A stretch of DNA of 20,000 nt from Neocallimastix lanati (nom. inval.) (Eukaryota; Neocallimastigomycota; Neocallimastigomycetes; Neocallimastigales; Neocallimastigaceae): contig JACVTC010000007.1 of NCBI GenBank assembly GCA_016946835.1, positions 170,001 through 190,000 on the forward strand, read 5' to 3'. This document shows positions 1 through 19,738 of this stretch, one piece after another. Made by a program: the position numbers and the translations under genes. Numbering within the stretch: the stretch's first letter is position 1; each line of letters opens with the position of its first letter. The notes under the pieces were generated by a model. The model worked only from the letters and a program-made list of their open reading frames with translations. It ran no database searches and was not told the DNA's origin.

Positions 1-2275
1 CTATTGTCTCTATCTGAACCTTCTTGATGATTTTCTTCAACAGCATTTCCATTATTCATATCTTGATTATCTTCTGGATTAACCACAGTATCATTACTTA
101 CATCATTATTATTTGAAATATTTTCATCCTTTGCTTCTTTTTGTTCTGCTTCTTTTTGTAATTCTTGGCTATTATCTTCTGGATTAATCTCAGTAATATT
201 ACTTATATCATTATTATTTGAAATATTTTCATCCTTTGTTTCTTTTTGTTCATTTTCATTTTCATTTTCTGATTTTTGGCTATTTTCTTTATCTGAACTT
301 TCTTGATGATTTTCTTCAACAGCATTTCCATTATTCATATCTTGATTATCTTCTGGATTAACCACAGTATCATTATTTACATCATTATTATTTGAAATAT
401 TTTCATCCTTTGTTTCTTTCTGTTCATTTTCATTTTCATTTTCTAATTCTTGGCTATTGTCTTTATCTGAACTTTCTTGATGATTTTCTTCAACAGCATT
501 TTCATTATTCATATCTTGATTATCTTCTGAATTAACCACAGTATCATTACTTACATCATTATTTTTTGAAATATTTTCATCCTTTGCTTCTTTTAGTTCA
601 TTTTCATTTTCATCATCATTATTATTTGAAATATTTTCATCCTTTGTTTCTTTCTGTTCATTTTCATTTTCATTTTCTGATTCTTGGCTATTATCTTTAT
701 CTGAACTTTCTTGATGATTTTCTTCCACGTCATTTCCATTATTCATATCTTGATTATCTTCTGGATTAACCACAGTATCATTACTTACATCATTATTATT
801 TGAAATATTTTCATCCTTTGTTTCTTTTTGTTCATTTTCATTTTCATTTTCTGATTCTTGGCTATTATCTTTATCTGAACTTTCTTGATGATTTTCTTCC
901 ACGTCATTTCCATTATTCATATCTTGATTATCTTCTGGATTAACCACAGTATCATTATTTACATCATTATTATTTGAAATATTTTCATCCTTTGTTTCTT
1001 TCTGTTCATTTTCATTTTCATTTTCTAATTCTTGGCTATTGTCTTTATCTGAACTTTCTTGATGATTTTCTTCAACATCATTTCCATTATTCATATCTAA
1101 ATTATCTTCTGGATTAACCACAGTAATACTACTTACATCATTATTATTTGAAATATTTTCATCCTTTGTTTCTTTTTGTTCATTTTCATTTTCATTTTCT
1201 GATTTTTGGCTATTTTCTTTATCTGAACTTTCTTGATGATTTTCTTCAACAGCATTTCCATTATTCATATCTTGATTATCTTCTGGATTAATCACAGTAT
1301 CATAACTTACATCATTATTATTTGAAATATTTTCATCCTTGGCTTCTTTTTGTTCATTTTCACTTTCATTTCCTGATTTTTGACTATTGTCTTTATCTGA
1401 ACTTTCTTGATGATTTTCTTCAACAGCATTTTCATTATTCATATCTTGATTATCTTCTGGATTAACCACAGTATCATTACTTACATCATTATTTTTTGAA
1501 ATATTTTCATCCTTTGCTTCTTTTAGTTCATTTTCATTTTCATCATCATTATTATTTGAAATATTTTCATCCTTTGTTTCTTTCTGTTCATTTTCATTTT
1601 CATTTTCTGATTCTTGGCTATTATCTTTATCTGAACTTTCTTGATGATTTTCTTCCACGTCATTTCCATTATTCATATCTTGATTATCTTCTGGATTAAC
1701 CACAGTATCATTACTTACATCATTATTATTTGAAATATTTTCATCCTTTGTTTCTTTTTGTTCATTTTCATTTTCATTTTCTGATGCTTGGCTATTTTCT
1801 TTATCTGAATTTTCTTGATGATTTTCTTCAACAGCATTTCCATTATTCATATCTTGATTATCTTCTGGATTAACCACAGTATCATTATTTACATCATTAT
1901 TATTTGAAATATTTTCATCCTTTGTTTCTTTCTGTTCATTTTCATTTTCATTTTCTAATTCTTGGCTATTGTCTTTATCTGAACTTTCTTGATGATTTTC
2001 TTCAACATCATTTCCATTATTCATATCTAAATTATCTTCTGGATTAACCACAGTAATACTACTTACATCATTATTATTTGAAATATTTTCATCCTTTGTT
2101 TCTTTTTGTTCATTTTCATTTTCATTTTCTGATTTTTGGCTATTTTCTTTATCTGAACTTTCTTGATGATTTTCTTCAACAGCATTTCCATTATTCATAT
2201 CTTGATTATCTTCTGGATTAACCACAGTATCATTACTTTCATCATTATTATTTGAAATATTTTTATCCTTTGTGC
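1..2275 (-). repeat. Coding tandem array, 58-residue (174-bp) unit, about 12-13 copies
   Basis: Each unit reads NPEDNQDMNNGNAVEE, then NHQESSDKDNSQ, then E/N-rich NENENEQKETKDENIS and NNNDVSNDTVV. Units differ by single substitutions such as QELENE versus QKSENE, or by a 20-residue insertion (DENENELKEAKDENISK type) present twice. All units stay in frame, so the array looks maintained as protein. The region is strongly acidic and disordered. Confidence 0.92.
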
Positions 2276-3577
2276 CATTTTGATCATTTACAATTTTTGT
2301 TGTTTGATTTCCAATACTACCTTCATTACTGTTATCTATGGACCTTTTTTGATTATAAGTTTTAATATCCATATTAGTATTACTTTCATTACTATTTTTT
2401 GAATTATTTCCATCTTTTGTTTCTTTTTTAATATTTACATTTTTTGATTTTGGACTCTTTCCTTTTAAAAATAGATATTTTTTATTTTCTCTGTTGAATA
2501 ACAATACATCAGTGTCATCATATAATATATATTCAAATTCGTTCCGCTTAGGCTGCTTATTTGTTGTTTGATTTTCATTTTTATTAGGATTATTTAACTT
2601 TATTGCATTATTTAAAATATTATTTTCTTTTTTGGATAATTTATAATCCTCATATGTAATAAACTCATTTCTTACATTTTTATTCATTTTTCTTTTATTA
2701 TGTTCAATATTTTGGAATATATATGATTTTGTTTTATTTTTATTTGATTCTCTTTTTCCATAATGATTGTCTATTTTAATACTACTAAATGAAAAAGATC
2801 CATTTATTGTATTATTACTATCTACTTTTTTGAGCTCATTTTTGTCATCGGTTCTATTCATTTTTCCTTTATTTTGTTCATTATTTTGAGACATATACGA
2901 TATTGTTTTATTTTTATTTGATTCCCTTTTTCCATATTGATTGTCTATTTTAATACTACTAAATAAAAAAGATCCATTTATTGTATTATTACTATCTACT
3001 TTTTTGAGTTCATTTTTTTTAGTACTATTACTTGAAGAAGATTCACTTATTGTATTATCACTCTTTACAATGACTTCAATTCCATCATTGGTTTCCTTAT
3101 CATCACTTTTATCCCCGTTAATTGATTTTTTTTTAATACTATTACTTGAAGAAGATTCATTTATTGTATTATCACTCTTTACTATGACTTCAATTTCATC
3201 ATCGTTTTCCTTATTAAAGCTTGAACTTTCACTGGTTGACAATTCACTATATGAAAAGGAATCGTAGTTATCTAAATGAGATGATGAATTCTTTTTTTCT
3301 AACTTAATTTTATTTTTATTTTTATTTCTATCTGAGTTTTGAATTTTATTATGCCATTTTTTTACTTCAATTAGTATTACAAATTATGTATATAAATTTA
3401 TTTAATATATAAATGAAAAAATTGTTAATATAATATGAATAGTTAAAAAATAATTCTATTTAATATATTTAGAAAAAATTCATTTTACATACTTATATCA
3501 AATAATTTCAAAATAATATTATTAAAAAAATTAGTAAAATAAAGAAAAAATTCTAAAATTTCTTTCAATTGTGTCAT
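1..3577 (-). CDS. Large acidic Asn/Glu-rich repeat protein, two exons, 3' end outside window
   Basis: Exon 1 (3577-3493) encodes MTQLKEILEFF and more, 28 residues of hydrophobic and amphipathic character that could anchor to a membrane. A 128-nt intron follows (GTATGT donor, TACTAAT branch-like box, GAAG acceptor). Exon 2 (3364 to the left edge) is open for about 1,120 codons. I chose this start because exon 2 has no in-frame ATG until about 2886 and the phase-1 junction keeps the frame. Order of parts: a basic Asn/Lys segment, two 38-residue repeats (IEVIVKSDNT), two 58-residue repeats (NELKKVDSNN), a less repetitive stretch with EFEYILYDDTDVLLF, then about a dozen 58-residue acidic repeats (NPEDNQDMNN ... 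DENISNNND). No known family is recognised. The C-terminus lies beyond the window, so a BAG domain like that of its neighbours cannot be excluded. The reading frame is certain; exon 1 is an inference. Confidence 0.8.
241..2220. repeat. 930-bp higher-order repeat over the 58-residue array
   Basis: Positions offset by 930 match closely. Blocks 541-840 and 1471-1770 are identical by eye, as are 961-1260 and 1891-2190, and 241-300 also matches 1171-1230 and 2101-2160. 930 bp is five 174-bp units plus the 60-bp insertion, so whole blocks were duplicated in frame, probably by unequal exchange. Confidence 0.88.
2668..3196 (-). repeat. Two further in-frame repeat pairs (38 and 58 residues)
   Basis: From about 3196 to 3016, two copies carry IEVIVKSDNT and SSSSNS, 38 residues apart. 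From about 3015 to 2668, two copies carry NELKKVDSNNTINGSF and SSIKIDN, exactly 174 bp apart. The second pair shares its period with the downstream acidic array but not its sequence. Confidence 0.75.
3365..3492 (-). other. Predicted phase-1 intron of the repeat-protein gene
   Basis: The donor GTATGTAA follows codon 28 plus one base. The 3' end has TACTAAT directly before TGAAG. Joining gives ATA-ATA-AAA-AAA-TGG with no stop. Confidence 0.55.
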
Positions 3578-4741: not shown

Positions 4742-6295
4742 TCAAATTTCTTTATAATTAATTTTTTCCGTTAGTTTATTTTTAATGACATCAGTTTCAC
4801 TTTCTAATTTTTGAATATATTTAACAATTGCTTTTCGTTTACAAAGTATTTCATCATTATCACTTTCAATTTTATCTATTAATTTTATTTTATTCATCAA
4901 AAATACTGTAATTTTTCGATAGGTTATTATTAAATCATTAGGTAATGGTAGGTCACATGAATAATTGTTCACTTTTTCTTCATAAATATTTATTAATGGT
5001 ACTATTTCTTCATCAATTTCTTTACGACTTTTTTCAATAAAATCCAATGGTTGTTCTCTTAAAAACCTAGATATTTCTTTTCTCGACATTTTTTTCTTCT
5101 TCGTTGGAATGGAAGTTTTATCATCTTGTGGATATATTGATATAGTTTCTTCTGTATTTTTTCCGGAAGAATGTTGATTATCCATTTTTTCATCTTTAAA
5201 GTTTTCCCTTTGTGTTTCATCATCCCTTATAGTTTTTAATGATATATTTTCATTACTTTTTTTATTCTTTGAACTTTTTCTTTTTGGTTTTTTAGGAAAA
5301 ACTTTAAATTTCTGCATACTATTCTGATTTATATTTTCTATTTTTGAATGACTATTAGCAATTTGCTTTTCTTTTTTATCAATTGTGAATAATTGTTTTT
5401 GACAATTTGGACTATTTTCTTCCTTAAAGTGTTTTGGATTTTCATTTTCAATAGGTTTATCTTCTAGAGATAGATTTTTCAAATTATCAGTTATTTTTTG
5501 TATATCATCATCATTAGTATTATCCTTTTTTTCAAGTGATTCTTCTAATGAAATATTTTTATTAGTTTTTTCTTTTTCAGTAGAAGTATTTTTTTGGCCT
5601 AAAATTGTATTATTATTATTTTGATATTGATTTATTCTTTGATTATCATAAATTGATGAATAAATTTTTTCATTTACCATAATTTTTACATTCCGAATTT
5701 CTTTTTGATCTAAAATTAGTTTATTATTATATTGATAGTGATTTATTCTTTGATTATTATGAATTGGTGATTGAAATGTTTCATTATTTATTTGAGTTAG
5801 ATTATGAGTTGGATATAGGTATTGATGTTGATATTGAGTCTGATTTTGAGTCTGATTTTGATTTTGATTATTAAAAAATGATTTTTGATTTGAATATGGG
5901 TATGGATGTTGATATTGATATTGATGTTGATATTGATATTGATGTTGATATTGATATTGATGTTGATATTGATATTGATGTTGATATTGATATTGATGTT
6001 GATATTGATGTTGATTTTGATGTTGATTTTGATTTTGATTATTAAAAGTTAATAATTTACGTCCTTCGTTAACAGAAGGGTTTTCGTCAATTTCAATGAT
6101 GCAATTCTCATTTTGTGAATAAGGCTTATTTAATAAATTATTTTTATTGTTATCATTTAATTTTTCGTTTTTATTCTTATTTTGATTGTGGTTATGAAAA
6201 GGAGTATTCGGTTCATCACTTCGATTTATGGATTGTACAATATTTTTAACAAGTTTTTTCACTATTAGCATTTTACAAATTAAACTTAAAATCAT
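4742..6295 (-). CDS. BAG-domain co-chaperone with Gln/Asn/Tyr-rich disordered region (copy 1)
   Basis: 517 codons from the first ATG. The C-terminal about 100 residues (419-513) form a three-helix BAG domain, the module that binds the Hsp70 ATPase domain and promotes nucleotide exchange. The Asp (D474, LIDKIES), Arg (R487, CKRKAIV) and Gln (Q495, YIQKL) that contact Hsp70 in BAG1 are present, with the Arg-to-Gln spacing of eight kept. Before it comes a Lys/Ser-rich linker; residues about 85-170 are QYQYQH repeats and QNQ tracts. The N-terminus MILSLICKMLIVKKLV is weakly hydrophobic. The true start is uncertain: TGCTAATAG at 6262-6270 resembles a branch point plus acceptor, so coding may begin at 6261 and continue from upstream exons. 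No UBL exon was found. It lies in tandem with two other BAG genes on the same strand. Confidence 0.82.
   Translation of the reverse strand: MILSLICKMLIVKKLVKNIVQSINRSDEPNTPFHNHNQNKNKNEKLNDNNKNNLLNKPYSQNENCIIEIDENPSVNEGRKLLTFNNQNQNQHQNQHQYQHQYQYQHQYQYQHQYQYQHQYQYQHQYQYQHPYPYSNQKSFFNNQNQNQTQNQTQYQHQYLYPTHNLTQINNETFQSPIHNNQRINHYQYNNKLILDQKEIRNVKIMVNEKIYSSIYDNQRINQYQNNNNTILGQKNTSTEKEKTNKNISLEESLEKKDNTNDDDIQKITDNLKNLSLEDKPIENENPKHFKEENSPNCQKQLFTIDKKEKQIANSHSKIENINQNSMQKFKVFPKKPKRKSSKNKKSNENISLKTIRDDETQRENFKDEKMDNQHSSGKNTEETISIYPQDDKTSIPTKKKKMSRKEISRFLREQPLDFIEKSRKEIDEEIVPLINIYEEKVNNYSCDLPLPNDLIITYRKITVFLMNKIKLIDKIESDNDEILCKRKAIVKYIQKLESETDVIKNKLTEKINYKEI
5888..6045 (-). repeat. 18-bp coding minisatellite (QYQYQH)n
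   Basis: The plus strand shows GATGTTGATATTGATATT repeated about five times, then degenerating to GATTTTGAT units. It encodes alternating Gln with Tyr, His or Asn, of prion-like composition, in the N-terminal third of BAG copy 1. Copy number is probably variable. Confidence 0.9.
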
Positions 6296-6415
6296 AAATA
6301 TTTCAAAAGAAATGAAATAAAAATATAATATTCAATAATAAAATTATTTCATTTAATTTGTTTTATAGTTATATAAATCAATTTTTAAAAAAATATAATG
6401 ATTATTTTATATTTA

Positions 6416-6416
6416 A

Positions 6417-6468
<52 letters not shown>
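6416..6468. repeat. (ATA)n microsatellite
   Basis: An uninterrupted ATA trinucleotide run of about 17 units in noncoding DNA. Confidence 0.95.
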
Positions 6469-6562
6469 GTTAATATAAATAGATTTCCATTAAAAATTAA
6501 TAATATTAATAATACTAATAATTATTATTATTATAGATAATGTTACATAAATTTATATTTAC

Positions 6563-6685
6563 AATATATGTTATAAAATGAAGGTGTTATATATATTAAA
6601 TGGAAGTCTTTTAACTTTTCTAAAGAATAAATTAATAATATCAATAATAAAAAAAAAAAAAAAATTAGTTTTTCCCATAATTTTA
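6563..6685 (-). other. Candidate upstream exon of BAG copy 1 (hydrophobic segment)
   Basis: Forty codons are open between an acceptor (AAGTAG) and a donor (GTAAATA), phase 1 at both ends. The translation starts KLWEKLIFFFFLLLILL, which would be a membrane segment. Joining to 6261 across a 301-nt intron (6562-6262) keeps the frame. The exon starts AG|TA-AAA-TTA-TGG, very like exon 2 of the repeat-protein gene (AG|TA-AAA-AAA-TGG). Part of the hydrophobicity comes from a 16-nt poly(T), so this may be chance. Confidence 0.25.
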
Positions 6686-6754
6686 CTACTTATAATTTTT
6701 TTAATTACCTATTTAATAATAAAAATCACATTACCTTCTAAAACTATTTTGAAT

Positions 6755-6789
<35 letters not shown>

Positions 6790-7362
6790 TAGATGTACAT
6801 ATATTAGTTTATTTATATCTTTTATTAATTATTCTATTATTATTAAAAAAAAAATGGAAATAATAAATAAATATAAATAATTATGTTGTATGTCCAAAAA
6901 TTAAAGTTTAATATTCTTTCCATTTTATTATTATACATCATATAAAATAAATTAATTTAAAAAATATATATATATATATATATGAATATATTATTTCAAT
7001 TTAAAAAGTTACCATTTAACTTAAGATAGAAAAATCTATATATATTATTCAATATTAGTAATTTAAAATTTTTTTTTTACATCCTATTCATTGGCCATAC
7101 ATATTATTTTGATTATTATTATAAAGTTACTAAACTTAATCAATTTTATTAAATGAAATAATTGTTACAATATTATTATCTCAGTTCATGTTTTTTTTTT
7201 TTTTTTCATGTTGATAATTTAAAGTTTAGATTTTTTTTTTTAATCTAGGATTAAACTTTAATTAATAATATTTATAAAAAAAAGTGCATATATATAAAAA
7301 TAAAATACATGAATTTTATTTTTTTTTTTTTTTACATTAATATTAAAAAAAAAAAAAAAAAA

Positions 7363-7760
7363 CTACGTTATGAGTTTCGAAGACGAAATGGCCTGTAACT
7401 TTTTCTGTAATTCATCGATGATAACTCCATTTGGATAATAATTATCATTTGAATGTGTATCAGAATTTCTTCTTTGCCATATCTAATTATCCTAATATTC
7501 CTCTTAATAATCTTGAAGATTTTTTAAGGAATTTTTTTCCTGAATTTCATCACCTACTTCATTGGCCGTAACAAAAAAGTTTCTTTACCATTGCGTTAGA
7601 ATCCAGATGATCATTATATTCAAATTCATCCGATAAATAGGTGAATTTTATTTTAAGAGAAATTTTTCACTTCATTTTTATCCCAACAAATTCAAATTCA
7701 AGTAGTTCAACTAATTTTCTTACCAGAAGGAGGTGTAAAATTGAAAATAATAATAAAAAG
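7363..7760 (-). pseudogene. Unidentified coding relic, minus strand
   Basis: This stretch has clearly higher GC and fewer homopolymers than its surroundings. On the minus strand, segments in shifting frames look protein-like: SGKKISWTTW then WDKNE near 7730-7670, YLSDEFEYNDHLDSNAMV near 7640-7590, and NDNYYPNGVIIDELQ then KKLQAISSSKLIT with a stop near 7450-7365, resembling a coiled C-terminus. Several stops and frameshifts interrupt it. I do not recognise the family. Order and strand suggest it may belong with the relic at 8100-8300. Confidence 0.4.
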
Positions 7761-8099
7761 ACGTAATTTTTTTTATAAAAAAAAAAAAAAAAAAAAGTTC
7801 ATAATATTAAATATCAAAAAGAAAATATTAATAAATCAAAAAAAAAAAAATGAAATAGAACCAATCAATTCTTATAGAAATAAAAAATAAATAAATAAAT
7901 AAATAAAAATCACAAAATTACATAATCATCAAAAAAAACAAAGAGTACATGATTAATATAATATTATACTACTATATAGTACTATACATAAAGGATTCAT
8001 ACATAGAAGAAATAGTAAATACATGAAAATAATGAAAATAAATAAATATATATATATAAAAAGATGCAATTTCTTAAAATTTTTTAAAAATTAATTAAT

Positions 8100-8300
8100 A
8101 ATTTTAATAAATATTATCTATTAGAAGCAACTGCAATGAACAACTATACCAAAAACGTTCTAAGATTTTTTTTTCATATCATCACCCTCGTTATTACGAG
8201 AATTAAGATAGTCTTTCCTCATTGGAACCCATAGAAGGTGATACATCCCTAAGGATTGAAGATATGATAGATAATGTTTCACATAATCATTGGATAAATA
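8100..8300 (-). pseudogene. Unidentified coding relic, minus strand
   Basis: The minus strand is open for about 47 codons and includes NYLSNDYVKHYLSYLQSLG, MYHLLWVPMRKDYLNS and RNNEGDDM. It then shifts frame at a poly(T) run into ERFWYSCSLQLLL. Composition is richer in GC than the flanks, and the text reads like real protein. The family is not recognised. It could be the 5' part of the same dead gene as 7363-7760, or an exon of a live gene whose other exons I cannot assemble. Confidence 0.4.
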
Positions 8301-8699
8301 ATTGAAATTAATATTCCTTTATGATATATATATATATATATATTAATAATCTTATATTAACTCAATTATTTTTAAAATTAAAAGCAACTCTATTATACTA
8401 ATGTTATTGCAACTATTACTATTATGGTTTTATTTTTAAGTATTTATTGCGCATTATTCATTATTTATTGGTTATTATTTATTATTAAAAATATTTAATA
8501 AATAATTATAAAAGGGTAAAAATAAGTTTTGTAATAAATAAAGTTTTAAAATAGTATAAAATAAAATTTCTTATAAATAATATTAATTTTTTTTTAAAAA
8601 AAAAAAAAAATATTTAAAAATAAATAAAAGTAAATAAAAAAAATTAAATGAAAAAAAAAATAAATGAATTATTAAATGTTCAATGTTTATAATAATAAT

Positions 8700-9035
8700 A
8701 TGGAAATAGAAGATTATCAAAAGGTTATAATGTGAAATGTGTAATTGGTAAAATAAAAGAAAGTAAAAAAAAAAAAAAAAAAAAAAAGTTAAATTATAAG
8801 TTTATTCCATGATACTGATATGAAATGGACAAAATGAAAATAACATTTTATATCTCAAGTATGGTGATAAAAATTGAAAATTATAAAGTTATTTACACAT
8901 TATAAACTATTTGTAAGTAAAAATAAAGATTTAATTGAAATCGAATATTTTTAATTATCCAGGAGAATGTAAAATGGAAATTGAAGGAGTTCATTTATTT
9001 AAAAATAATTGGAATCCTAATGTTTAATTAAATTT
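8700..9035 (+). pseudogene. Possible coding relic, plus strand
   Basis: There is only a weak signal. Fragments such as NYPGECKMEIEGVHLF and KNNWNPNV near 8955-9025 look protein-like and are preceded by KDLIEIEY in another frame. Stops and a poly(A) run break it. No family is recognised. Confidence 0.22.
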
Positions 9036-9064
9036 GTTTAACACGAGGTAATAAAGAAAATTAT

Positions 9065-9119
<55 letters not shown>

Positions 9120-10539
9120 TTGATAATATTTATTTAAAACTTTATTAAATATATAAAAAAAAACATATATTTTCCAAATTAATTTTTTTTTATTAATTTA
9201 TGAATAGTATTATTAATATATGTAGAAATTATTAAAATAAAAATTTTTTAATAATAATTTAATATTTTTACTTTAATAAAATTTGTTTTATTTTTTTTTA
9301 TTTTTTTATTAATATTTTTCATTTTTTATTTTTTTTTATTTTTTTATTAATATTTTTCATTTTTTAAATATTATTTTTAACGTATTTAATAAAGTGAAAA
9401 GTGAAAGTTGAGTGTTTGATTTTTATTATTTTTTTTGAAAGAAGAAATTTCTTTATGTAATTTTAATTTTATTTATCGATATATAATTTTTTATCTATAA
9501 AAGATACTTTTTATGTATGTAATTTATAATAATAATATTTATAAAAGAAAAACTTTTTTACCATAAAATTTTTTGAATATAATGATTGATTTTATATTAT
9601 TGGATAATAATATAGTTTCACATATGTTAATATATTTGAAATATATAAAATCATTTTATTTTTTGTTATAATTATATATTTTAAAATATTATTGTTTATA
9701 TATTATTCATATACTTATATTAATATATGATAAAAATTATTTGAAAAAAAAAACTTTTTTTTTTTAAATATTGATATTTGGTAATATAATATAATATAAT
9801 ATAATTTAATATAATATAATATAATATAATATTTTTTTTTTTATTTTTAATTAATTTTTTTTTATTGAATCTAAATTTTTATTTGATGATTCCATATTAA
9901 AAAGTTAATGAATGAATTTATTATTATTTAAATAAATATTTTGATATTTTATGATTTTTTTTTAATTCTTTTTTTTTTTTTTTAATTCTTTTTTTTTTTT
10001 TTAATTCTTTTTTTTTTTTTTTTAAATTCTTGTTTTAAAAGAATTTAAAGAAATTGTTTAGATCTAGAATAAATTTTGATTAGAAGGTAATTTTGATAAT
10101 AAAGTATATTAAGTTTTTAAAGTTATTTTTTATAGGAAGACTTAAATAATATTTTTATATTTTATAAATAGTTAATAGACAGACACATTTTTGGATTTAA
10201 AGTTTTGAAAGATTTGTATTGTAAAAAAGGTAAATATTTTTTTTATTTATTTATAAATAAATAAGCATAAATTAAAAAAAGTGAAAAGAAAGAAAAAAAT
10301 AAAAAAAAAAAAAAATTAAAGAAGAAAATAAACCAATATATATATATATATATATATATCAGAGGATAAATTTCCTCCTTTTGAAGTTATGTTATATTAT
10401 AGTATATTTAGAAATAGAAATATCAAAACAAAAAGAAAAAATAAATAAAAATATTATGAAAGATAAATAGAATTTAATATCTTAATAAGATGAATTGTAA
10501 GATTAAAAAAAAAAGTAGTTTATTAACAAAAGGAATATC
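9036..10539. other. AT-rich spacer with simple repeats
   Basis: No gene is supported. It includes a 52-nt poly(A) (9066-9117), two copies of a 38-bp T-rich unit (about 9300-9366), an (AATAT)n tract (9782-9832), a fourfold poly(T)-AATTC array (about 9958-10028) and a (TA)n run (10336-10357). Between about 10160 and 10240 the plus strand is briefly less AT-rich and reads RHIFGFKVLKDLYCKKG before a GTAAATA donor-like site. This might be an isolated exon, but nothing confirms it. Confidence 0.6.
9066..9117. repeat. Poly(A) homopolymer, 52 nt
   Basis: Direct reading shows 52 consecutive A. Similar runs occur at 14714-14757 (44) and 18580-18617 (38). They may be tails of very old retroinsertions or simply replication slippage. 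Confidence 0.95.
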
Positions 10540-11261
10540 ATGATGTATAGATTGATATTAATAAGTGTTATTAATATTTGTTGGATTAATAAAATAGGTA
10601 AATATAGAATAGAAGAAATAAGAATAAAAATAAGAGTTTATATAAAATTAAATATATGAAATGATTATAGAAATGAATACATAAAAAGTTTTAAAATGGT
10701 TAAAAATCAATTAACTTAATAAATGTATTATGAAGATGGTTGATATTAGATTAAGTAAAAAAAAAGATGAGTTAGAAATAAAGATTGTTGGATAGTCTTT
10801 TGATAATAAATATCTGATATTTTAAGATGTAATTTAAAAAGATATATTATTTTTAAAAGCAAATAAAAAAAATATATATATATAAAGTATTGATATTAAT
10901 TATTATATTTTTAAGAAAGCAGGATAGCAAGATGTGATTTTGGAATAAAGTTTTCAAATGTATTCTATTTATTATTGAATGGATTCATGAAAGTATTCAT
11001 CAGAGAACTGAAAGACCATTGAATTATAATAATTATGATAGTATACGAAACGAAGAAGGGTTAAATAATAGAGATGATAGAAAAATTGTTTATAATGTTA
11101 CTGTTAATAATTATTATTTTAATAGTAATAATACTTATAAAAAAGTAACAAAAGAAAATAGTTCTAATATAGAATATATAGAAGATAGTTATAAAAAAAC
11201 TAGCAATAGAAAATGTAGACCAACACTATTGGAATACGTAGACCAACCCCTATTAAGTTAA
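10540..11261 (+). CDS. Possible small two-exon protein, 122 residues
   Basis: Exon 1 (10540-10597) begins ATG-ATG and encodes MMYRLILISVINICWINKI, a signal-like or membrane-like segment, and ends at a GTAAATA donor in phase 1. Exon 2 (10951-11261) would join after AATAAAG and stay open to TAA: VFKCILFIIEWIHESIHQ, then an Asn-rich polar part (VTVNNYYFNSNN), ending CRPTLLEYVDQPLLS. The 3' half from about 10990 is certainly open; the splice model and the start are inferred. It is the only plus-strand gene-like object in the middle of the window. It could also be a remnant. No family is recognised. Confidence 0.35.
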
Positions 11262-11322
11262 TGTTAATAGATATTAAATAAAATTTTATAATAGATTTTA
11301 AATTAAGATGCCAGATAGAATT

Positions 11323-11840
11323 CCTGATCATATATAAAAGTCTATTTTAATAGATATAATTCTGTAATAGGATAAAATGTTTAATGTATTAATAATATAA
11401 AAAAAAAAAAAAAAAAAATCTAAAATCAAATTTATTATAATAAATTATTTATATATAATAAATAAAATTCATTTATTAAATAAAAAAAAAAAAAAAGAGA
11501 GAGAAATATATTATAATAATTATAATAATTATGTCCAAATTTTTATATATATATATTTACTATTATTAATATATTATTGTTTTGTTGATCATATATATAA
11601 AAGTCTATTTTAGAAATATAATCCTGTAATAGGATAAAATGTTTAATATATTAATAATATATGAAAATATAAAATCAAATATATTATTTATATATTATTT
11701 ATATATTATATATAATAAATAATTTTCATTAAAAAAAAAAAAAAAAAAAAGTTAAATATATTATTTTTTTTTGTTTATATATTATAATAATTATGAATAT
11801 ATAAAAAAAAAAAAAAAATTTGGACATAAATAAAAAAAGT
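11323..11840. repeat. Diverged tandem duplication of about 220-260 bp
   Basis: Copy 1 (about 11323-11545) and copy 2 (about 11582-11840) share TGATCATATAT, AAAAGTCTATTTTA, CTGTAATAGGATAAAATG, TAAAATCAAAT, a poly(A) run, TATTATAATAATTATG and a final TGTCC/GGACA box, in the same order. They differ mainly in microsatellite length. The DNA is noncoding and lies just downstream of the small plus-strand gene. Confidence 0.8.
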
Positions 11841-11857
11841 ATAATTACAATACAAAA

Positions 11858-11885
11858 TTTTTTGGACATAATTATGTCTAAAAAA
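11858..11885. repeat. 28-bp palindrome TTTTTTGGACATAA / TTATGTCTAAAAAA
   Basis: Two 14-nt arms abut with no spacer and have one mismatch. The arm is the same TTATGTCCAAA-type box seen elsewhere in the spacers. Confidence 0.85.
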
Positions 11886-11908
11886 AAAATTTTTTTTTAT
11901 ATTCATTA

Positions 11909-11920
<12 letters not shown>

Positions 11921-11983
<63 letters not shown>

Positions 11984-11990
11984 TATTATT
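11921..11990. repeat. (TTA)n microsatellite
   Basis: A long TTA trinucleotide run. It creates a poly-Leu reading frame that is not a gene. Confidence 0.93.
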
Positions 11991-12312
11991 ATTATTATTT
12001 TTTATTATTTTATTTAGTAAAAAATAAAAAATAAATATAATTACTACTTATAACCATTATAAACTTATTACAAAAAAAAAAAAAAAAATAAACTGAATAA
12101 AAAAAGTATGTATATACGTTTACATTTTTTATAATATATTTAATTATTTATAATTTAATTACAAAGGAATAAAAACCACATTTCAAAATACATCATATTC
12201 TTATTTTTATATAATTTTTTTTTTTTGTCATTATTATTTATTTATTTTATGTGAAAAAAAAAAAAAAATTTTTTTTTTTTTGTCAGTAAATAATATTAAT
12301 AAAAACTTATTA

Positions 12313-12343
12313 GATTTAATATTTATTATGAAGACTTACTCAT
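12313..12343. repeat. Copy of the BAG copy 2 stop region
   Basis: 31 bp match 12668-12698 with one mismatch. That source encodes the last residues (MSKSS) and stop of BAG copy 2 plus the first 3' untranslated bases. No further BAG sequence is seen next to the echo. Confidence 0.8.
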
Positions 12344-12680
12344 AATAAATATATATATCTATTAATTTTTTTTTAATATATATTAGATTATTTGAAGAAT
12401 TTTTTAATTTATCTTTTTTTTTTTTTTTTATCTTTATTTAAATACAATTTCATTTTAGTTGTATTGATGTTTTTATTTATTATTTAATTATAATTTAAAT
12501 TATTAGAAAAAAAAAAAGTAATTCGTAATTATATCAATGTTTTTATGTATTTATTTATTAGTAAAAAAAATAAATAAATAAAAATAATTCCATTTCTTTA
12601 TTTTTATTCTTATTTTTTTTTTTCAATTTCTTTATTTTTATTTTTTTTTTTTTTTTTTTTTTTTTTTGATTTAATATTTA

Positions 12681-13104
12681 TTATGAAGACTTGCTCATTA
12701 ATTCCATTTTCCTTTTTTCTACCAAAGAAAGAATTTTTTGAATTAATCTTACATGAAATTTACGACTTTCTCTTATTTCTTCATTTTGACTTTCCACTTT
12801 ATCTATTAGCATTAATTTTTTCATTAAAAACTCCGACGCTTTTCTATAGGAAATATCAACATCATCAGTGATTTCTTTAATTTCTTTAACTTTCGAATAG
12901 TTCTCCACTTTTTCCTTATATTCTATATATAAAGGAATCAGTTCTCCAATAATTTCTTCAAAACATAAACTTAAAAAATTTTCTGGGTCTTGATTTATCA
13001 TTTTATTTAATTGAGCTCTTGACATCTTCTTAGACTTCACAGATTTATTTATAGCTAGTGGAGGGAGTTTATTATTTTTTGGAGTAGTTAATTTATCATC
13101 ATCA

Positions 13105-13175
<71 letters not shown>

Positions 13176-13680
13176 ATTATTATTGGAATCCTGATTAAAT
13201 TTTGTATCTATTTCCTTATAATCATCGTTTAAATTATCTTTTATTTTTGATGAATCTTGTTGATCTTTTTGATTTTTACTATTATTTCTGTTCTTCCATA
13301 CATTTTGTGATGAATCAGATAGATGTATGTTATCATTATCATTAATTTTTATTTGTAATGAACCCTGTTGATCTTGTTGATTTTTTCTATTATTTCTGTT
13401 CTTCCATGTATTCCATGGATTGACATTTTGTGATGAATCAGATCGATGTCTGTTATCATCATTATTATTTTTTATTTTTGATGAATCTTGTTGATATTGT
13501 TGATTTTTACTATTATTTCTGTTCTTCCATACATTTTGTGATGAATCAGATCGATATTTGCTTTTATCATCATTATTTTGAATATTATATGATTTTGAAA
13601 TACTTTTTTCATTTCTATTTTGGCAAATTCCATTTCTACCATGGTTAATAGTCTTTGAATAATATTCTTTTTTATCATTA

Positions 13681-13749
<69 letters not shown>

Positions 13750-14562
13750 CTATTTTTATTATTGAAATTCTGATTAAATATATTCGATTTTGAATTTATT
13801 TCCTTATAATTGTCATTTAAACTATCTTTTATATTGGAATGATTATCATTTTTAGAGTCTTGTTTAGACACTTTTTTAGATTCATTTTTAGATTTTTGTT
13901 TAAACTCTTGTTTAAACTCTTGCTTAGACTCTTGCTTAGACTCTTGCTTTGATTCTTGCTTTGATTTTTGTTTAGACTCTTGATTAAAGTCTTGTTTAAA
14001 TTTTAATTTTGGATCTTTCTCTATAATAATTTTTAAAAAATTTCCGTCGAAACCACATTTGTTCAACAATTTATCATCCTCTATTAATTCTATTTTTATT
14101 TAAAAAAAAAATTGTAATATTAATAAGAAATATTTAAAAAAAAAAAAAAAAAATTCATATCAATATATCAATATATATCTTTTACATTATAATATATTAT
14201 TTTTTTTATTTTATTTTATTTTATTTTAGATATAATATATATTATTTTTTAAAAATATTTAAATATTGATATGAAAAAAAAAAAATTTTTTTATTTTCAT
14301 TATTTTTTTTTTTTTTTTGGAATTACTTTATTTATGAAGTTTAGGATTTTTATTATTTACCCTCTTTAATTTTAAATTTTATTTCATTTTCTGAAATTGA
14401 GAAAGTCTTACTAATTCTTGGCTTTAAATCACAAACTTTATATTCTTTAAATTTTTTTGAATCACAATAAATAATGGCATCATTTGTACTATTTGATTTT
14501 TTGGAATCAAAAGTAATGGTCTCATATTTACCATTGTATTCTAATGAAATAACACGTTTCAT
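12681..14562 (-). CDS. UBL-BAG co-chaperone with poly-Asn region (copy 2), two exons
   Basis: Exon 1 (14562-14361, ATG start) and exon 2 (14089-12681) join in phase 1 over a 271-nt intron to give 536 residues. Without splicing, exon 2 has no ATG at its front. The junction rebuilds a ubiquitin-like fold: strand MKRVISLEYNGKYETITF, helix region VCDLKPRISKTFSISEN, then ELIEDDKLLNKCGFDGNFL, the usual EDDKxLxxxGxxDGxxL ending. Next come ESKQ repeats, two poly-Asn tracts and three copies of SDSSQNVWKNRNN. The BAG domain (about 438-530) keeps Asp (D497, LIDKVES), Arg (R510, ESRKFHV) and Gln (Q518, LIQKIL). By family, UBL-BAG proteins bring Hsp70 to the proteasome; a cytosolic or nuclear site is inferred. 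It is a tandem paralogue of the genes at 4742 and 15990. Confidence 0.85.
13099..13180 (-). repeat. Poly-Asn tract (AAT)n, C-terminal one
   Basis: More than twenty consecutive AAT codons, ending in four Asp, just before the BAG linker of copy 2. Pure codon use indicates slippage. Confidence 0.93.
13235..13565 (-). repeat. Three in-frame SDSSQNVWKNRNN repeats
   Basis: The box CATTTTGTGATGAATCAGAT on the plus strand starts at 13301, 13424 and 13532. Units of 36-41 residues combine SDSSQNV, WKNRNNSKNQQ and DSSKIK. The Trp residues stand out in an otherwise polar region. Confidence 0.85.
13679..13760 (-). repeat. Poly-Asn tract (AAT)n, N-terminal one
   Basis: About nineteen AAT codons flanked by Asn/Lys mixtures in UBL-BAG copy 2. 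Confidence 0.92.
14090..14360 (-). other. Predicted phase-1 intron of UBL-BAG copy 2
   Basis: The donor is GTAAATAATA after AAA-GAG-G. The acceptor AAAAATAG is preceded by a poly(T) tract. The joined codon is GAA and the UBL continues across it. Confidence 0.75.
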
Positions 14563-14710
14563 TATATATTCTTTATAATTGTTAAAATATATATATATAT
14601 TATTTAAATTATACAGAGCTATAAATAAATAAGCTTTTATTAATAAAACATTAAATAAATTTAAATTAATAACTTTTATAATTTTTTTTTATTAATTATA
14701 TTTATATATA

Positions 14711-14759
<49 letters not shown>

Positions 14760-14937
14760 AAATTTAATTTTATTTTATATTGAAAAATAATAAAAAATAA
14801 GTCCATATTATTAATTTTTAATTTAAGATACCTATTAAATCAAAATTCAAAAAATGGACATATATATGCCTTTTTTTTTTTTTACACAATATCATATCAA
14901 TACAATTTTTTATATCCTGTGTAATACTATAATAATA

Positions 14938-15140
14938 CGTATTGCACGCCACGCTTATTGATAATGAGCCATGCCAGTTCCTTTGTTCGACCCTCATTTT
15001 TTTTAATCTCTAAGCAAAGGGTAGTACTGAAGGATAATAACAGTTCCTACAGTCACATAGTATATAATGTGGCTTGAATTGTCTAAGGGATTTTCATCAA
15101 GATTGACGAATAGTTAAGTACCTTTTCGGTTAACCTATTA
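14938..15140. other. GC-richer island, possible structured RNA or gene relic
   Basis: Roughly 200 nt with near-balanced composition stand out sharply. Possible stems are AGTCACAT/ATGTGGCT (15051-15074, 8-nt loop), CCTTTG/CAAAGG (14980-15020) and a GTTAA/TTAAC hairpin (15113-15135). CAGTTCCT occurs twice (about 14975 and 15041). GTTCGACCC at 14985 resembles an RNA polymerase III B box, but no tRNA fold or partner A box is seen. I compared it by memory with U1-U6, U3, 5S, SRP, RNase P and MRP signatures and found no convincing match. Open stretches of 30-40 codons exist on both strands without a recognisable protein. Confidence 0.45.
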
Positions 15141-15634
15141 AAAAAAAAAAAAATGGAAATAAAAAATAAAAAAAATGGAAATAAAAAAATAAAAAAAATA
15201 ATTTAAATAAATTAATCACCATTTTAAAGTTTAATTCAATGAATAATGAATATCTTTTTATAAAATTTTATAATTTATTGAGTTATTTAATATATTTATT
15301 ATTAATGATGTCCTTTTTTTTTTTATTTTTTTTTTCAATGATAATACTATTTTTTATTAATAATAATATAATTGTATTATATTTTTCAAAGTTTTAATAA
15401 AAAATTTTTCAATTAATATTTAGTTATTATAATATATTCATTAAGAAAAATATATCTACTATCTACTAATTTAATTTTTATAATGAATTGATAATATATT
15501 AATGATATATAATATTCTAAACTTTTTTTTTTTTATAAAGAAATAAAAAAAAAAAAAGTTCCTAAATTGGTATAAAAACTTGACAGTAATAAATAATAAT
15601 AGTAATAATAATAAATAATAATAATAAATAATAC

Positions 15635-15708
15635 ACATTAAATATTATTACTTAATAATATTAAATGTAATAAAAGTGTTTAAAGATATATATATACATA
15701 TCTTTAAA
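15635..15708. repeat. Two adjacent inverted repeats downstream of UBL-BAG copy 3
   Basis: The first is ACATTAAATATTATT / AATAATATTAAATGT (15635-15668, one mismatch, 4-nt loop). The second is TTTAAAGATAT / ATATCTTTAAA (15679-15708, perfect). They lie about 280 bp beyond the stop of the minus-strand gene and could mark its 3' end; that role is inferred. Confidence 0.7.
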
Positions 15709-15989
15709 GAGAAATAACAGTAAAAATGATGAAAAAAAAAATATCAATTATATATTTACATTTTTTCAATAATTTTGATATTTTTTATCTTTATTTCTTT
15801 TTTTTTTATTTTTTTTTTTTTTTTTATTTTTATTTTTATTTTATTTTTATTTTTTTTTTTTTTTAAATGCCTCAAAAATTAAATAAATAAATAAATGAAA
15901 AAAATAAAATTAATATTAATAAAAATAAAAATAAAAAAGTTTAAAAATAGTTAAATATAAAAAAAAAAAAGTTAATATTAATTTATTAT

Positions 15990-16943
15990 TTAATTAATAG
16001 ATATCGATATTGACTTTTTTTCTTTTTCTTTTTCTTTTTCTTTTTTAAAAAATTCATTTTTCTGTACATCAATTTTAAATAATAACTCTTGAATTAATGT
16101 CATTGTAAATTTATGTTCTTCTTGTACTTTACTGTCATTAATTTTTATATTATTTATTAAATTTAATTGTTTCATTAAAAGACACTTAATTAATTGATAG
16201 GAATCGTTTAAATCTTTTAATGATACATTATTCGGATAGTTTTCTACCTTTTCTCTAAAGATAATAATTAATGGAATAATATCCTCTATAATGGCTTCAA
16301 AGCGTCGTTCTAGGAAAGCTAATTGGTCTTCTTCAATTGGCGGACTTAATTTTTCTTTTTGCATTTTTATTTCATTGTAAATTTGTTTCTCTGAATTTGA
16401 TTGATCAGAAATCGTTTCATCTGTAATTGAATTATCCACGATTGTTTCTTCTGAATCTGTTTTTTTTGATTTTGTCTCTTCTAAAATTAAATGTTCTGAA
16501 TCCGATGTGTTTACGTATAAAGTACTTTGTGATCTAGTGTCCTGATTCATATCTGAAGTTTTTGAGAAAATTTTACCATTGGAATTGGAATTATTATTAA
16601 TATTTACTGCATTTTCAGTTTTAATTTGAAGACTATTTTTATATTTCACAGATTCGATGGAATGATGATCATGCTTATCCCTGTTTATGTTACATTTATT
16701 TAGTAAAATTTTGATATCTGATACGCGTTCTTCTCTATGACTCAGTAAATTATCAAGTTTCGGTTTTTCTTGATTTGAAATAGGAATGGAATAATTATTA
16801 TTATTGGTATACGATGTATTTGATTTGGATTTTGAATGATATTGGTTTAATAAAGAAAGATATTTTCCCATATTTATTGAATATGAGAGAAGTAAAGGTT
16901 TTTCCTTTTTATATTTAATTTTTCAGATAGGATATATATACCA

Positions 16944-16974
<31 letters not shown>

Positions 16975-17311
16975 CATTGATATTTATAAAAAGAAAAGTA
17001 AAAAAATATAGTTATTATTTTAATACTTTATTAACATTTTTAACTCACTTTATAAAATAGAATATTTATATTGCCCATATAAATATACTTACACCTTTAA
17101 CAATAATTAATGAATCTTTCGTAATACCATAACTTACTAATTTCTTATTATCATCTTCCATGGCAACTTTTAAAAGTATTAAATGAATTTATAATTTTAT
17201 ACATTTTTAAATATACTTTAATAATGTTATAATAAATAAATATCAAATAAAAAAAAAATATCTCTTTTCTATAAATAATCATTAATTCATATATAAACAA
17301 CTACATATATA

Positions 17312-17345
<34 letters not shown>

Positions 17346-17672
17346 GATTCATTATTAACCTAAAGACTACTTTTTATATATATTTTATATTATATTAAAA
17401 AAAAATAATAATAATAATAATAATACAAAATAATACAATATATATTAATGATTATTTAATATTTATACTACTACATATTTTATTATGATTATAATTGTTT
17501 TACCTCCATCAAAAAAAAAGATAAACTTTTTATATTTATTTAATAAATGATATTTTTTACAAAGTATATTTTTTACATTCCGTAATGTAGCATTTCTAAA
17601 AACACTATCATTGATAAACCCAAATTGATATGTTCTATTACGCATTTCTATAAAAATGAAAATAAATATCAT
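15990..17672 (-). CDS. UBL-BAG protein with altered BAG contact residues (copy 3), three exons
   Basis: Exons 17672-17504, 17166-17093 and 16904-15990 join to 385 codons. The first junction (phase 1) yields FFFDG-V-AMEDDNKKLVSYG, the second (phase 0, GTAAGT donor) follows ITKDSLIIVKG. Residues 10-81 thus make a typical ubiquitin-like domain (helix ATLRNVKNILCKKYHLLNKY, ending EDDNKKLxxYGxxxDS). The middle is Ser/Asn-rich with acidic Thr/Ser patches (SEETIVDNSITDETISD). The C-terminal BAG-like domain (about 277-365) aligns to copies 1 and 2 through IIPLIIIFREKVENY and LIQELLFKID. However, the Asp and Arg contacts are Asn332 and His345; only Gln353 remains. A KEKEKEK tail follows. The ATG at 17645 is an alternative start. 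The last acceptor (AAAAAG) is weak but is the only AG available. Confidence 0.82.
16905..17092 (-). other. Predicted phase-0 intron of UBL-BAG copy 3
   Basis: The donor is a perfect GTAAGT after GTT-AAA-GGT. The acceptor AAAAAG lies 33 nt before the in-frame ATG at 16871. Exon 3 stays open from it. Confidence 0.65.
17167..17503 (-). other. Predicted phase-1 intron of UBL-BAG copy 3
   Basis: The donor is GTAAAACA after GAT-GGA-G and the acceptor is TTTTAAAAG. The joined codon GTT sits inside the UBL where the flanking halves complement each other. Confidence 0.8.
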
Positions 17673-18757: not shown

Positions 18758-19099
18758 AACGTAGCTGGTCCATTAGCTTTTTGCAAAAAAGAAATTCCTA
18801 CAAAAGGATGATGATGATTCATTCTTTGTATTTAAAACAGAGATGTTATTTTTATGATTTCCTTTTTTTATTTATTTAACAAAAATTTCCAAAAAAGTCT
18901 CATGGCACTGAAGGAACCGATTATGATTACTAGGGTGGAAGAATCATCATTAAAGAAGGGTGTTGTTGTTTTGCAAGCCGAACAGCTCATGTAATGTAAA
19001 GTGACCAGTTTCGTTGAAAAACCTACAAAATTTCGTTGGGATAATAGAATTAATGCTGGTTATTTACATATTTTTTTCAATCCTTCTTTGCTTGACAGG

Positions 19100-19290
19100 T
19101 ATTAAATTCGAAAAAGAGAAGGACGGTTATTTATTACAACAAAGGAGGTATGAAAATATACTTGATAAATATGATATAAATAAATATAAGATATCTTCAA
19201 ACATGATACCAGAGGAAAATGAAAAGTTGAGAAAGAAAAAATTTAATATCACAAGATATCAACAAGCTATAGGGACATTTCTATACCTTG
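19100..19290 (+). mobile_element. Ty1/copia reverse-transcriptase fragment inside the MPG1 pseudogene
   Basis: About 190 nt encode in one frame GIKFEKEKDGYLLQQRRY, ENILDKYDINKYKI, then YQQAIGTFLYL. These are the copia landmarks at the end of the RT domain (FLGI..., LSQ.KYI..IL.K, and YR..IG.LLYL...). The piece starts right after LLDR of MPG1 and ends where ELKLPSTSIDKEVF of MPG1 resumes. No LTR, tRNA primer site, integrase or obvious target duplication is present, so it is an orphan fragment. It happens to stay in frame with MPG1 sequence on its right and with a shifted MPG1 frame on its left, creating a 118-codon chimeric ORF (19014-19370). Confidence 0.8.
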
Positions 19291-19692
19291 AATTGAAATT
19301 ACCATCAACTTCTATTGATAAGGAAGTCTTCCTTGCTATGGCCCGCGGAAGATCAAATTACATTGTATAGATTTTTAGAAGGATGATGAATGGATGTTGA
19401 TCCACCAAAGGATTACCTTAACTGGTAATGTCTTAATATATCTTTCATTCATCTCTTGCTAAGAAAAAGTCCGAAAAAGTTCAGAAAAGTTATTTCAGAC
19501 TCTCTACATCTCTGTACCATTGGTAATGTTTTTTAATTAATTCAATTGCTAAGATTGGTAAAGATTGTAAAATTGATTTAAATGTTGTTATTGATCCAAA
19601 TGTCATCATTGATAATGATATTGAAATGGTTAGATTTTCTCTATTAGAAGATGTAAAAAAAAAAAAAAAAAAAAAAATTAAAGGCCATTCAA

Positions 19693-19738
19693 GGATTAGA
19701 GAAAGTATCATTGCAAGCAATGATACTTTCTCTAATCC
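19693..19738. repeat. Perfect 22-bp inverted repeat with 2-nt spacer
   Basis: Left arm GGATTAGAGAAAGTATCATT-GC (19693-19714), spacer AA, right arm its exact reverse complement (19717-19738). The left arm is MPG1 coding sequence (RIRESII); the right arm replaces the MPG1 sequence expected next. Confidence 0.95.

Follow-up and report, generated by a model that had tools for sequence, protein, structure and literature searches.

What are three neighbouring genes of a gut fungus, all read from the same strand, and do their products still act on Hsp70? The genes, A, B and C, lie on the minus strand of a 20,000-nucleotide stretch of the Neocallimastix lanati genome (C665:170001-190000; here called the window), which has a G+C content of 17.5% and belongs to an assembly of 199,045,447 bases in 762 contigs. 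An earlier note, drawn from the sequence alone, had described them as a tandem family of co-chaperones with a ubiquitin-like (UBL) N-terminus, a linker rich in Asn and Gln and a C-terminal BAG domain. Passages of a published survey describe fungal BAG-1 as a single gene, which over 90% of fungi have lost and which is absent from Chytridiomycota (PMC7766421). We found at least 17 BAG loci in this genome and consider it likely that the region holds part of a lineage-specific, tandem-amplified family of BAG-domain Hsp70 co-chaperones, descended from a BAG1-type founder. Set against the single or lost gene of those survey passages, this count bears out the proposal of a BAG family that arose by tandem duplication and is unusual for fungi.

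The C-terminal domains of the window genes

Gene A is an open frame of 529 codons (window positions 4742..6331) encoding Gln/His/Tyr repeats, an Asn-rich linker and a C-terminal BAG domain, the last of which occupies 4763..5098 together with an N-terminal extension (MSRKEI..REQPLDF). The BAG domain of gene B was located at 12690..13043 and the more divergent one of gene C at 16041..16364. As had been claimed, the three C-terminal domains can be aligned, the identity to A being 41% for B and 33% for C. The two motifs thought to be common to all, PLxxxxxEKVxNY and LIDKxES, hold in A and B, whereas C keeps the first and carries LINNIKI in place of the second.

In protein scans with the Pfam BAG model PF02179, B passed the cut-off of 23.4 bits with 29.4 bits, A stayed below it with 19.3 bits and C gave no match. 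In the genome search, A reached 23.9 bits together with its neighbours. A direct whole-genome search linked C to B (E 3.9e-11). In the PDB, the top four matches of a profile built from 17 family BAG regions were BAG4, BAG4 (listed under the name Silencer of Death Domains), plant BAG4 and BAG3 (E 6e-5 to 0.0017), with non-BAG chains following from rank 5 (E 0.0077). A profile of seven clade I members alone matched BAG chains in all eight of its PDB matches at E ≤0.1. Clade II, to which C belongs, was joined to clade I by profile comparison with 99.4% probability (E 5.6e-22).

An AlphaFold model of the gene C BAG domain, built from three sequences, is a three-helix bundle with helices at residues 17-45, 52-74 and 81-113 and a mean predicted local distance difference test score (pLDDT) of 86.4, which is the fold that the earlier note had expected a structure prediction to give. 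Comparison of this model by Foldseek returned, as its first eight entries, five structures of one HSP70 fragment-screening series (5aqs, 5aqi, 5aqf, 5aqq and 5aqh), which we take to be complexes with BAG1, as well as plant BAG1, plant BAG4 and a designed scaffold. The template-modelling scores of the BAG entries ranged from 0.40 to 0.71. The homology of the C-terminal domains of A, B and C within the BAG family is confirmed in its core, with A and C joined to B through homology, and C also through its predicted fold.

Size and arrangement of the family

The genome contigs were searched with the Pfam BAG model and with five member domains. The resulting 17 loci, spread over three arrays of six, four and three genes and four single genes, are a lower bound, as parts of the genome read N. 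Members outside the window are named by contig-position labels such as K1481. Array 1 comprises A, B, C, E200, G209 and H212, all on the minus strand of C665, with domains from 174,763 to 213,297 (38.5 kb), and contains in addition a broken BAG copy near contig position 205.9k. The four genes of array 2 lie on C665 near 1.48-1.49 Mb, the three of array 3 on the plus strand of C654, and the single genes on C113, C108, C224 and C43. The C43 locus resembles yeast Snl1; it is counted among the 17, and being partly unreadable and badly aligned it was kept outside the tree and the residue counts. In the 16 other loci, the last-exon frames are intact and span 269-952 codons. The count excludes the contig C645, the broken copy, gene D (see below) and weak matches with E >0.01. 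The description as a family of three had to be given up: the three genes belong to an array with no fewer than six BAG genes and one broken copy, and a relative inside the window had been missed.

This relative, gene D, is a long Asn/Glu/Asp-rich repeat protein at the left window edge (3..3383, minus strand), with a frame of at least 1127 codons and repeats of about 58 residues that continues past the edge. Over 324 amino acids it shares 65% identity (E 6e-66) with the N-terminal part of H212, a BAG gene about 40 kb away at contig position 213.0k. The part of gene D within the window has no visible BAG domain and no Pfam match at E ≤0.05. Since its N-terminus is paralogous to that of H212, we assign gene D to the BAG family on this homology and expect its BAG end beyond the window.

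The family tree (16 rows, midpoint root) sets apart clade II, made up of C, E200, M715, G209 and H212, with a support of 98/97. Twenty columns are invariant across this group of five, which includes one pair of near copies.

Outside this genome, no relatives were recovered in two viral-contig scans and one prokaryote-genome scan, each run with one protein, and A, B and C had no match in a defence-system library. We found no paper in the open PMC literature that joins 'BAG domain' with Neocallimastigomycota or Neocallimastix. A separate observation concerns the 12 kb contig C645, which carries a 457-codon frame that translates identically to one of the genes of array 2 (C665:1.49 Mb). The two stretches are not identical overall, and the frame would be either an allele or a second copy of that gene.

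Conservation of the Hsp70 contact residues

Passages in two papers name Glu212, Asp222, Arg237 and Gln245 as the residues by which BAG1 contacts Hsp70 (PMC6013550, PMC8755836). When the corresponding columns were placed by BAG1 spacing, B was found to keep all four, A three (D222, R237 and Q245, along with K238; E212 is replaced by V) and C only Q245, with E212 changed to C, D222 to N and R237 to H. All four are likewise kept in K1489, M721, C113 and C224. Of the 16 aligned members, 14 have D222, 12 have Q245 and 11 have E212, and eight have lost R237, which is replaced by H (C), K (E200), N (G209 and H212), Y (M715) and, in three members of array 2, by L, C and L. Five of these eight form clade II. 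On the tree, the loss of R237 corresponds to three changes, or to two if only the starred branches are counted. All seven members that pass the Pfam BAG cut-off (B, K1489, M717, M721, C113, C108 and C224) have R237, and A is the only member to keep R237 while scoring below it.

From these residues, contact of A and B with Hsp70 appears plausible. B is most likely a BAG1-type Hsp70 nucleotide exchange factor, and the same probably applies to A. With R237, D222 and Q245 in place, both would bind the nucleotide-binding domain of Hsp70 and speed up nucleotide exchange, while the UBL and the linker might set their site of action. In C, three of the four contact residues are changed, so that standard Hsp70 binding by this protein is doubtful. 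For C and its clade as a group, the standard Hsp70 contact has most likely been lost, and their products could bind Hsp70 weakly, bind a different Hsp70 or act by competition. The loss of R237 in so many copies raises the question of their present binding partner, and the clade without R237 offers a natural test of how much freedom the interface between Hsp70 and its exchange factor gains after duplication.

Gene structure and the UBL end

For genes with more than one exon, the N-terminal ends were reconstructed as splice models. Gene C was modelled with three minus-strand exons: the first half of the UBL at 17504..17645, the second half at 17093..17166 (exon end placed by hand), and an exon at 15990..16904 (exon start placed by hand) for a Ser/Asn/Lys-rich linker and the BAG domain. 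In gene B, the initial part of a putative UBL-like N-terminus was assigned to 14361..14562, and the remaining UBL-like region, the Asn-rich linker and the BAG domain to 12681..14089. Six genes were modelled with a phase-1 intron in the same part of the UBL, namely C, B, C224, M715, M717 and C113; the intron of E200 can be modelled in phase 0 or 1. Several donors or acceptors were available for B, E200, C224, M715 and C113, and those completing the UBL were chosen.

Once spliced, the UBLs of C224 (5.5e-12), C113 (3.7e-9) and M715 (1.4e-7) exceeded the Pfam ubiquitin cut-off. C remained below it (21.3 bits against 25.4; E 2.4e-4), E200 showed only a weak Ubiquitin_2 match (0.01), and B and M717 had no Pfam UBL match. 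In translated upstream stretches, no UBL exon was seen by eye for A, the 721k gene, gene D or the H212/G209 type, and none was seen by eye among the listed frames of array 2. The claim that at least two of the window genes begin with a UBL goes too far, with a match below cut-off in C and none in B.

The ancestral plan appears to have been UBL, linker and BAG domain, the UBL being weakly supported in C and, for B, deduced from its paralogues' intron position. As UBL scores range from above the cut-off to no match at all, the family looks like a set of BAG1-type genes in which the UBL is decaying or has been lost in several copies. The founder would have been a BAG1-type gene with a UBL, a disordered linker and a long BAG domain, a state to which the single gene on C224 may stand closest. 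Tandem copying would then have kept the BAG end while letting the UBL decay to differing degrees. As an observation on array 2, two of its genes (C665:1481-1492k) have a short upstream frame with GKKVGKV-type lysine/valine/glycine repeats and no visible UBL, which is possibly a membrane-seeking amphipathic segment.

Rates of change and possible birth-and-death of copies

The ratio of non-synonymous to synonymous change (omega) of recent BAG pairs was 0.88 for G209/H212 and lay at 1.8-2.4 in three pairs of array 2; in one further array 2 pair, synonymous changes were absent. Simulating neutral evolution under AT-biased mutation gave non-synonymous fractions near those observed (four pairs, 36 settings, P 0.03-0.82), and positive selection on the recent copies was dropped as an explanation. 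Since the simulation matches the recent pairs, the rates fit absent constraint or a mix, and positive selection is not demonstrable. A compensated frameshift, considered as the source of the differing third helix of array 2, was excluded, as the codons show substitutions only.

These rates are in line with the idea that the arrays might reflect mostly relaxed birth-and-death, in which tandem BAG1 duplicates in a repeat-rich genome are largely redundant or decaying and have acquired no new function. The neutral fit of four recent pairs is what such a scenario would produce, as are the broken copy inside array 1 and the complete turnover of the linkers. Three features speak against it: the last-exon frames are intact in spite of the A+T-rich DNA, a hydrophobic pattern is kept among distant paralogues along with the predicted fold in C, and clade II retains its invariant columns, even if two of the five sequences are near copies. 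We regard birth-and-death without new function as possible, though less likely than not.

Several further results weigh against our reading of the region as a family of BAG-domain co-chaperones. Only 7 of 16 members pass the Pfam BAG cut-off, and the clade II profile on its own matches no BAG chain in the PDB. The fold prediction covers C only, its Foldseek E-values are weak (0.068-0.36; none ≤0.001), and a designed helical scaffold ranks sixth, amid the BAG entries. In the tree, only 4 of 13 inner branches are well supported. The recent copies fit the neutral expectation, and some may be becoming pseudogenes.

Possible Hsp70 partners in the genome

At least 52 Hsp70 loci were counted in the genome (55 matches; 52 scored of 118 first-look candidates). 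We compared the relevant segment in all 52 and sorted them by eye, after the residues had been seen, into 24 canonical cytosolic proteins, 21 divergent ones and seven others, the last group presumably consisting of two BiP-like, two organelle-like and two more proteins as well as C757. The BAG-facing residues R258, R262, E283, D285, D292 and Y294 are intact in all 24 canonical Hsp70s, and a normal BAG partner therefore exists. The divergent Hsp70s, often found in tandem groups (C135, C1, C301, C257 and C468), retain R262 in 21 of 21, D292 in 15, D285 in 14, R258 in three (Lys in 18) and, of the two partners of BAG R237, E283 in one and Y294 in none.

This pattern raises the idea of a second, rewired network in which the tandem BAG proteins without R237 (C and its clade) would serve the tandem divergent Hsp70s that lack Glu283 and Tyr294. 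The partner of BAG D222, R262, is the very residue that all divergent Hsp70s keep, and on the BAG side D222 is likewise kept more often than R237. Both gene sets are tandem and fast-changing: compared over the same segment, omega was 0.41-1.10 for divergent Hsp70s, with one pair at 2.14 (18 tandem or related pairs from chosen groups), against 0.02-0.16 for canonical ones (15 pairs of six chosen, one pair without amino-acid change). If true, such a network would be a rewired form of a contact between chaperone and exchange factor whose strong conservation across the known BAG proteins has been reported. However, 10 of 61 conserved Hsp70 columns are equally badly kept (in at most one divergent protein; mean over the 61 columns 11.0 of 21). 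The joint loss of E283 and Y294 has a chance of 0.025 if those two residues are preset, but of 0.25 for at least two among the six contact columns, and the copies are not independent. Counting C757 as divergent changes the numbers to 2 of 22 for E283 and 1 of 22 for Y294, and a charge swap between the two sides was not seen. As judged from sequence comparison, the loss of Glu283 and Tyr294 may serve as a lead, not as proof, as it does not go beyond chance across all contacts, and we consider a rewired network unlikely. For other parts of the Hsp70 cycle, searches gave one weak place for Fes1 and 48 exon-level matches for DnaJ.

Linker composition

The linkers, measured from the point where the open frame begins and in some cases holding a few intron-derived residues, contain 29.0% (A), 36.6% (B) and 17.5% (C) Asn plus Gln. 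The segment between the domains was thus rightly called N/Q-rich for A and B, and not for C. The long Asn or Gln tracts ascribed to all three genes could not be recovered: the longest Asn runs are 4, 22 and 4 residues and the longest Gln runs 1, 2 and 1 in A, B and C, respectively, so that a tract is present in B only. Across 16 linkers, Asn plus Gln ranges from 2.7 to 36.6%. It reaches at least 23% in nine, A and B included, and lies between 2.7 and 19.5% in the other seven (E200 5.0%, the four of array 2 2.7-5.9%, G209 19.5%, and C); an N/Q-rich segment is hence not common to the whole family. The linker of E200 is 35% Glu, those of array 2 consist of Glu/Lys/Ile/Val-rich repeats, C113 has Asn/Glu/Gln repeats and M715 QRIEN-type repeats.

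The two Asn runs of gene B (18 and 22 residues) are encoded by AAT in 40 of 40 codons, compared to 56 of 65 Asn codons outside the runs (chance 0.0026). The longer run corresponds to an (ATT)n microsatellite at 13107..13184 (minus strand), and a similar intergenic (ATT)n tract lies at window 11900-12014. In their codon use, the runs look as microsatellite slippage would give. Passages on homopolymers report that Neocallimastigomycota have the most of them, partly explained by proteome size, and that the biggest Asn share is found there and in Microsporidia (PMC11878562). According to published surveys, homopolymers and low-complexity tracts rich in Asn are common in the phylum (PMC11878562, PMC10512342). 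We judge the N/Q filler to be probably background and not a shared prion-like device, with each linker possibly having drifted to whichever low-complexity repeats the AT-rich genome offered.

The idea that N/Q-rich linkers let the co-chaperone phase-separate or track N/Q-rich clients can draw on the nine linkers with 23-37% Asn plus Gln and on the report that the N/Q prion [URE3] of yeast can be cured, via Hsp70, by the BAG domain of Snl1 in its free form (PMC3962485). In view of the seven linkers with a different composition, the pure AAT runs of B and the wide occurrence of Asn-rich tracts in the phylum, this part of the earlier proposal is weakly supported at best, and we consider it improbable.

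Neighbouring sequence

Near the right edge of the window (~18990-19370, plus strand), a degenerate stretch contains a nucleotidyl transferase-like piece (Pfam NTP_transferase, E 0.096, below cut-off). The frame that follows had no Pfam match and is, on our assumption, Ty1/copia-like polymerase. Perhaps this stretch is a broken gene plus a transposon remnant. Within the degenerate stretch, a 22-base inverted repeat, perfect and with its arms 2 bases apart, was seen at window 19693-19738. Beyond the window, in the middle of array 1, a minus-strand gene that lies between C and E200 (C665:194010-195359) encodes a polysaccharide deacetylase-like, apparently secreted protein with two dockerin-like ends, as judged by eye. 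Dockerin arrays are a mark of anaerobic gut fungi (Neocallimastigomycota). Genome-wide, first-look candidates for dockerin CBM_10 numbered 1440; among the 150 that were scored, those listed were all over the cut-off.

Comparison with known systems

With at least 17 BAG and at least 52 Hsp70 loci in a chytridiomyceta fungus, the genome stands against the absence of BAG-1 from Chytridiomycota reported in the survey passages (PMC7766421). Passages of a study of gut fungi give them the highest fungal gene share of HSP20 and HSP70 and propose that these stabilise an Asn-rich proteome (PMC10512342). Our family comes from the same lineage; the main text of that study lacks the term BAG, and the passages concerned name Hsp20 and Hsp70. 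With the BAG family, the published idea of gut-fungal chaperones strengthened for such a proteome would gain an exchange-factor arm.

Plant BAG families are similar in being multi-gene, with 15, 14 and 14 genes reported for sweet potato and two relatives (PMC12470027). They would represent a separate radiation, plant BAG4 and BAG1 structures being only distant matches to our sequences. Yeast Snl1, a membrane-anchored BAG protein, is resembled by the C43 locus, where a hydrophobic stretch was noted by eye at the N-terminus and a weak BAG match was obtained at the C-terminus. No anchor of this kind was noted by eye in the window genes, whose alignment with one another is far better than that with C43.

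A further likeness is to BAG1 and to Bag101 and Bag102 of fission yeast, which share the combination of an N-terminal UBL and a C-terminal BAG domain, as found at C224 (BAG 3.6e-13, next to its ubiquitin match, both over the cut-off). The family described here differs from these by its at least 17 loci in place of one or two, by its low-complexity linker and by the loss of R237 in half of the aligned members. It also differs in gene structure, with introns placed inside the UBL by our splice models, whereas the fungal BAG1 genes covered in passages of the survey are intronless (PMC7766421).

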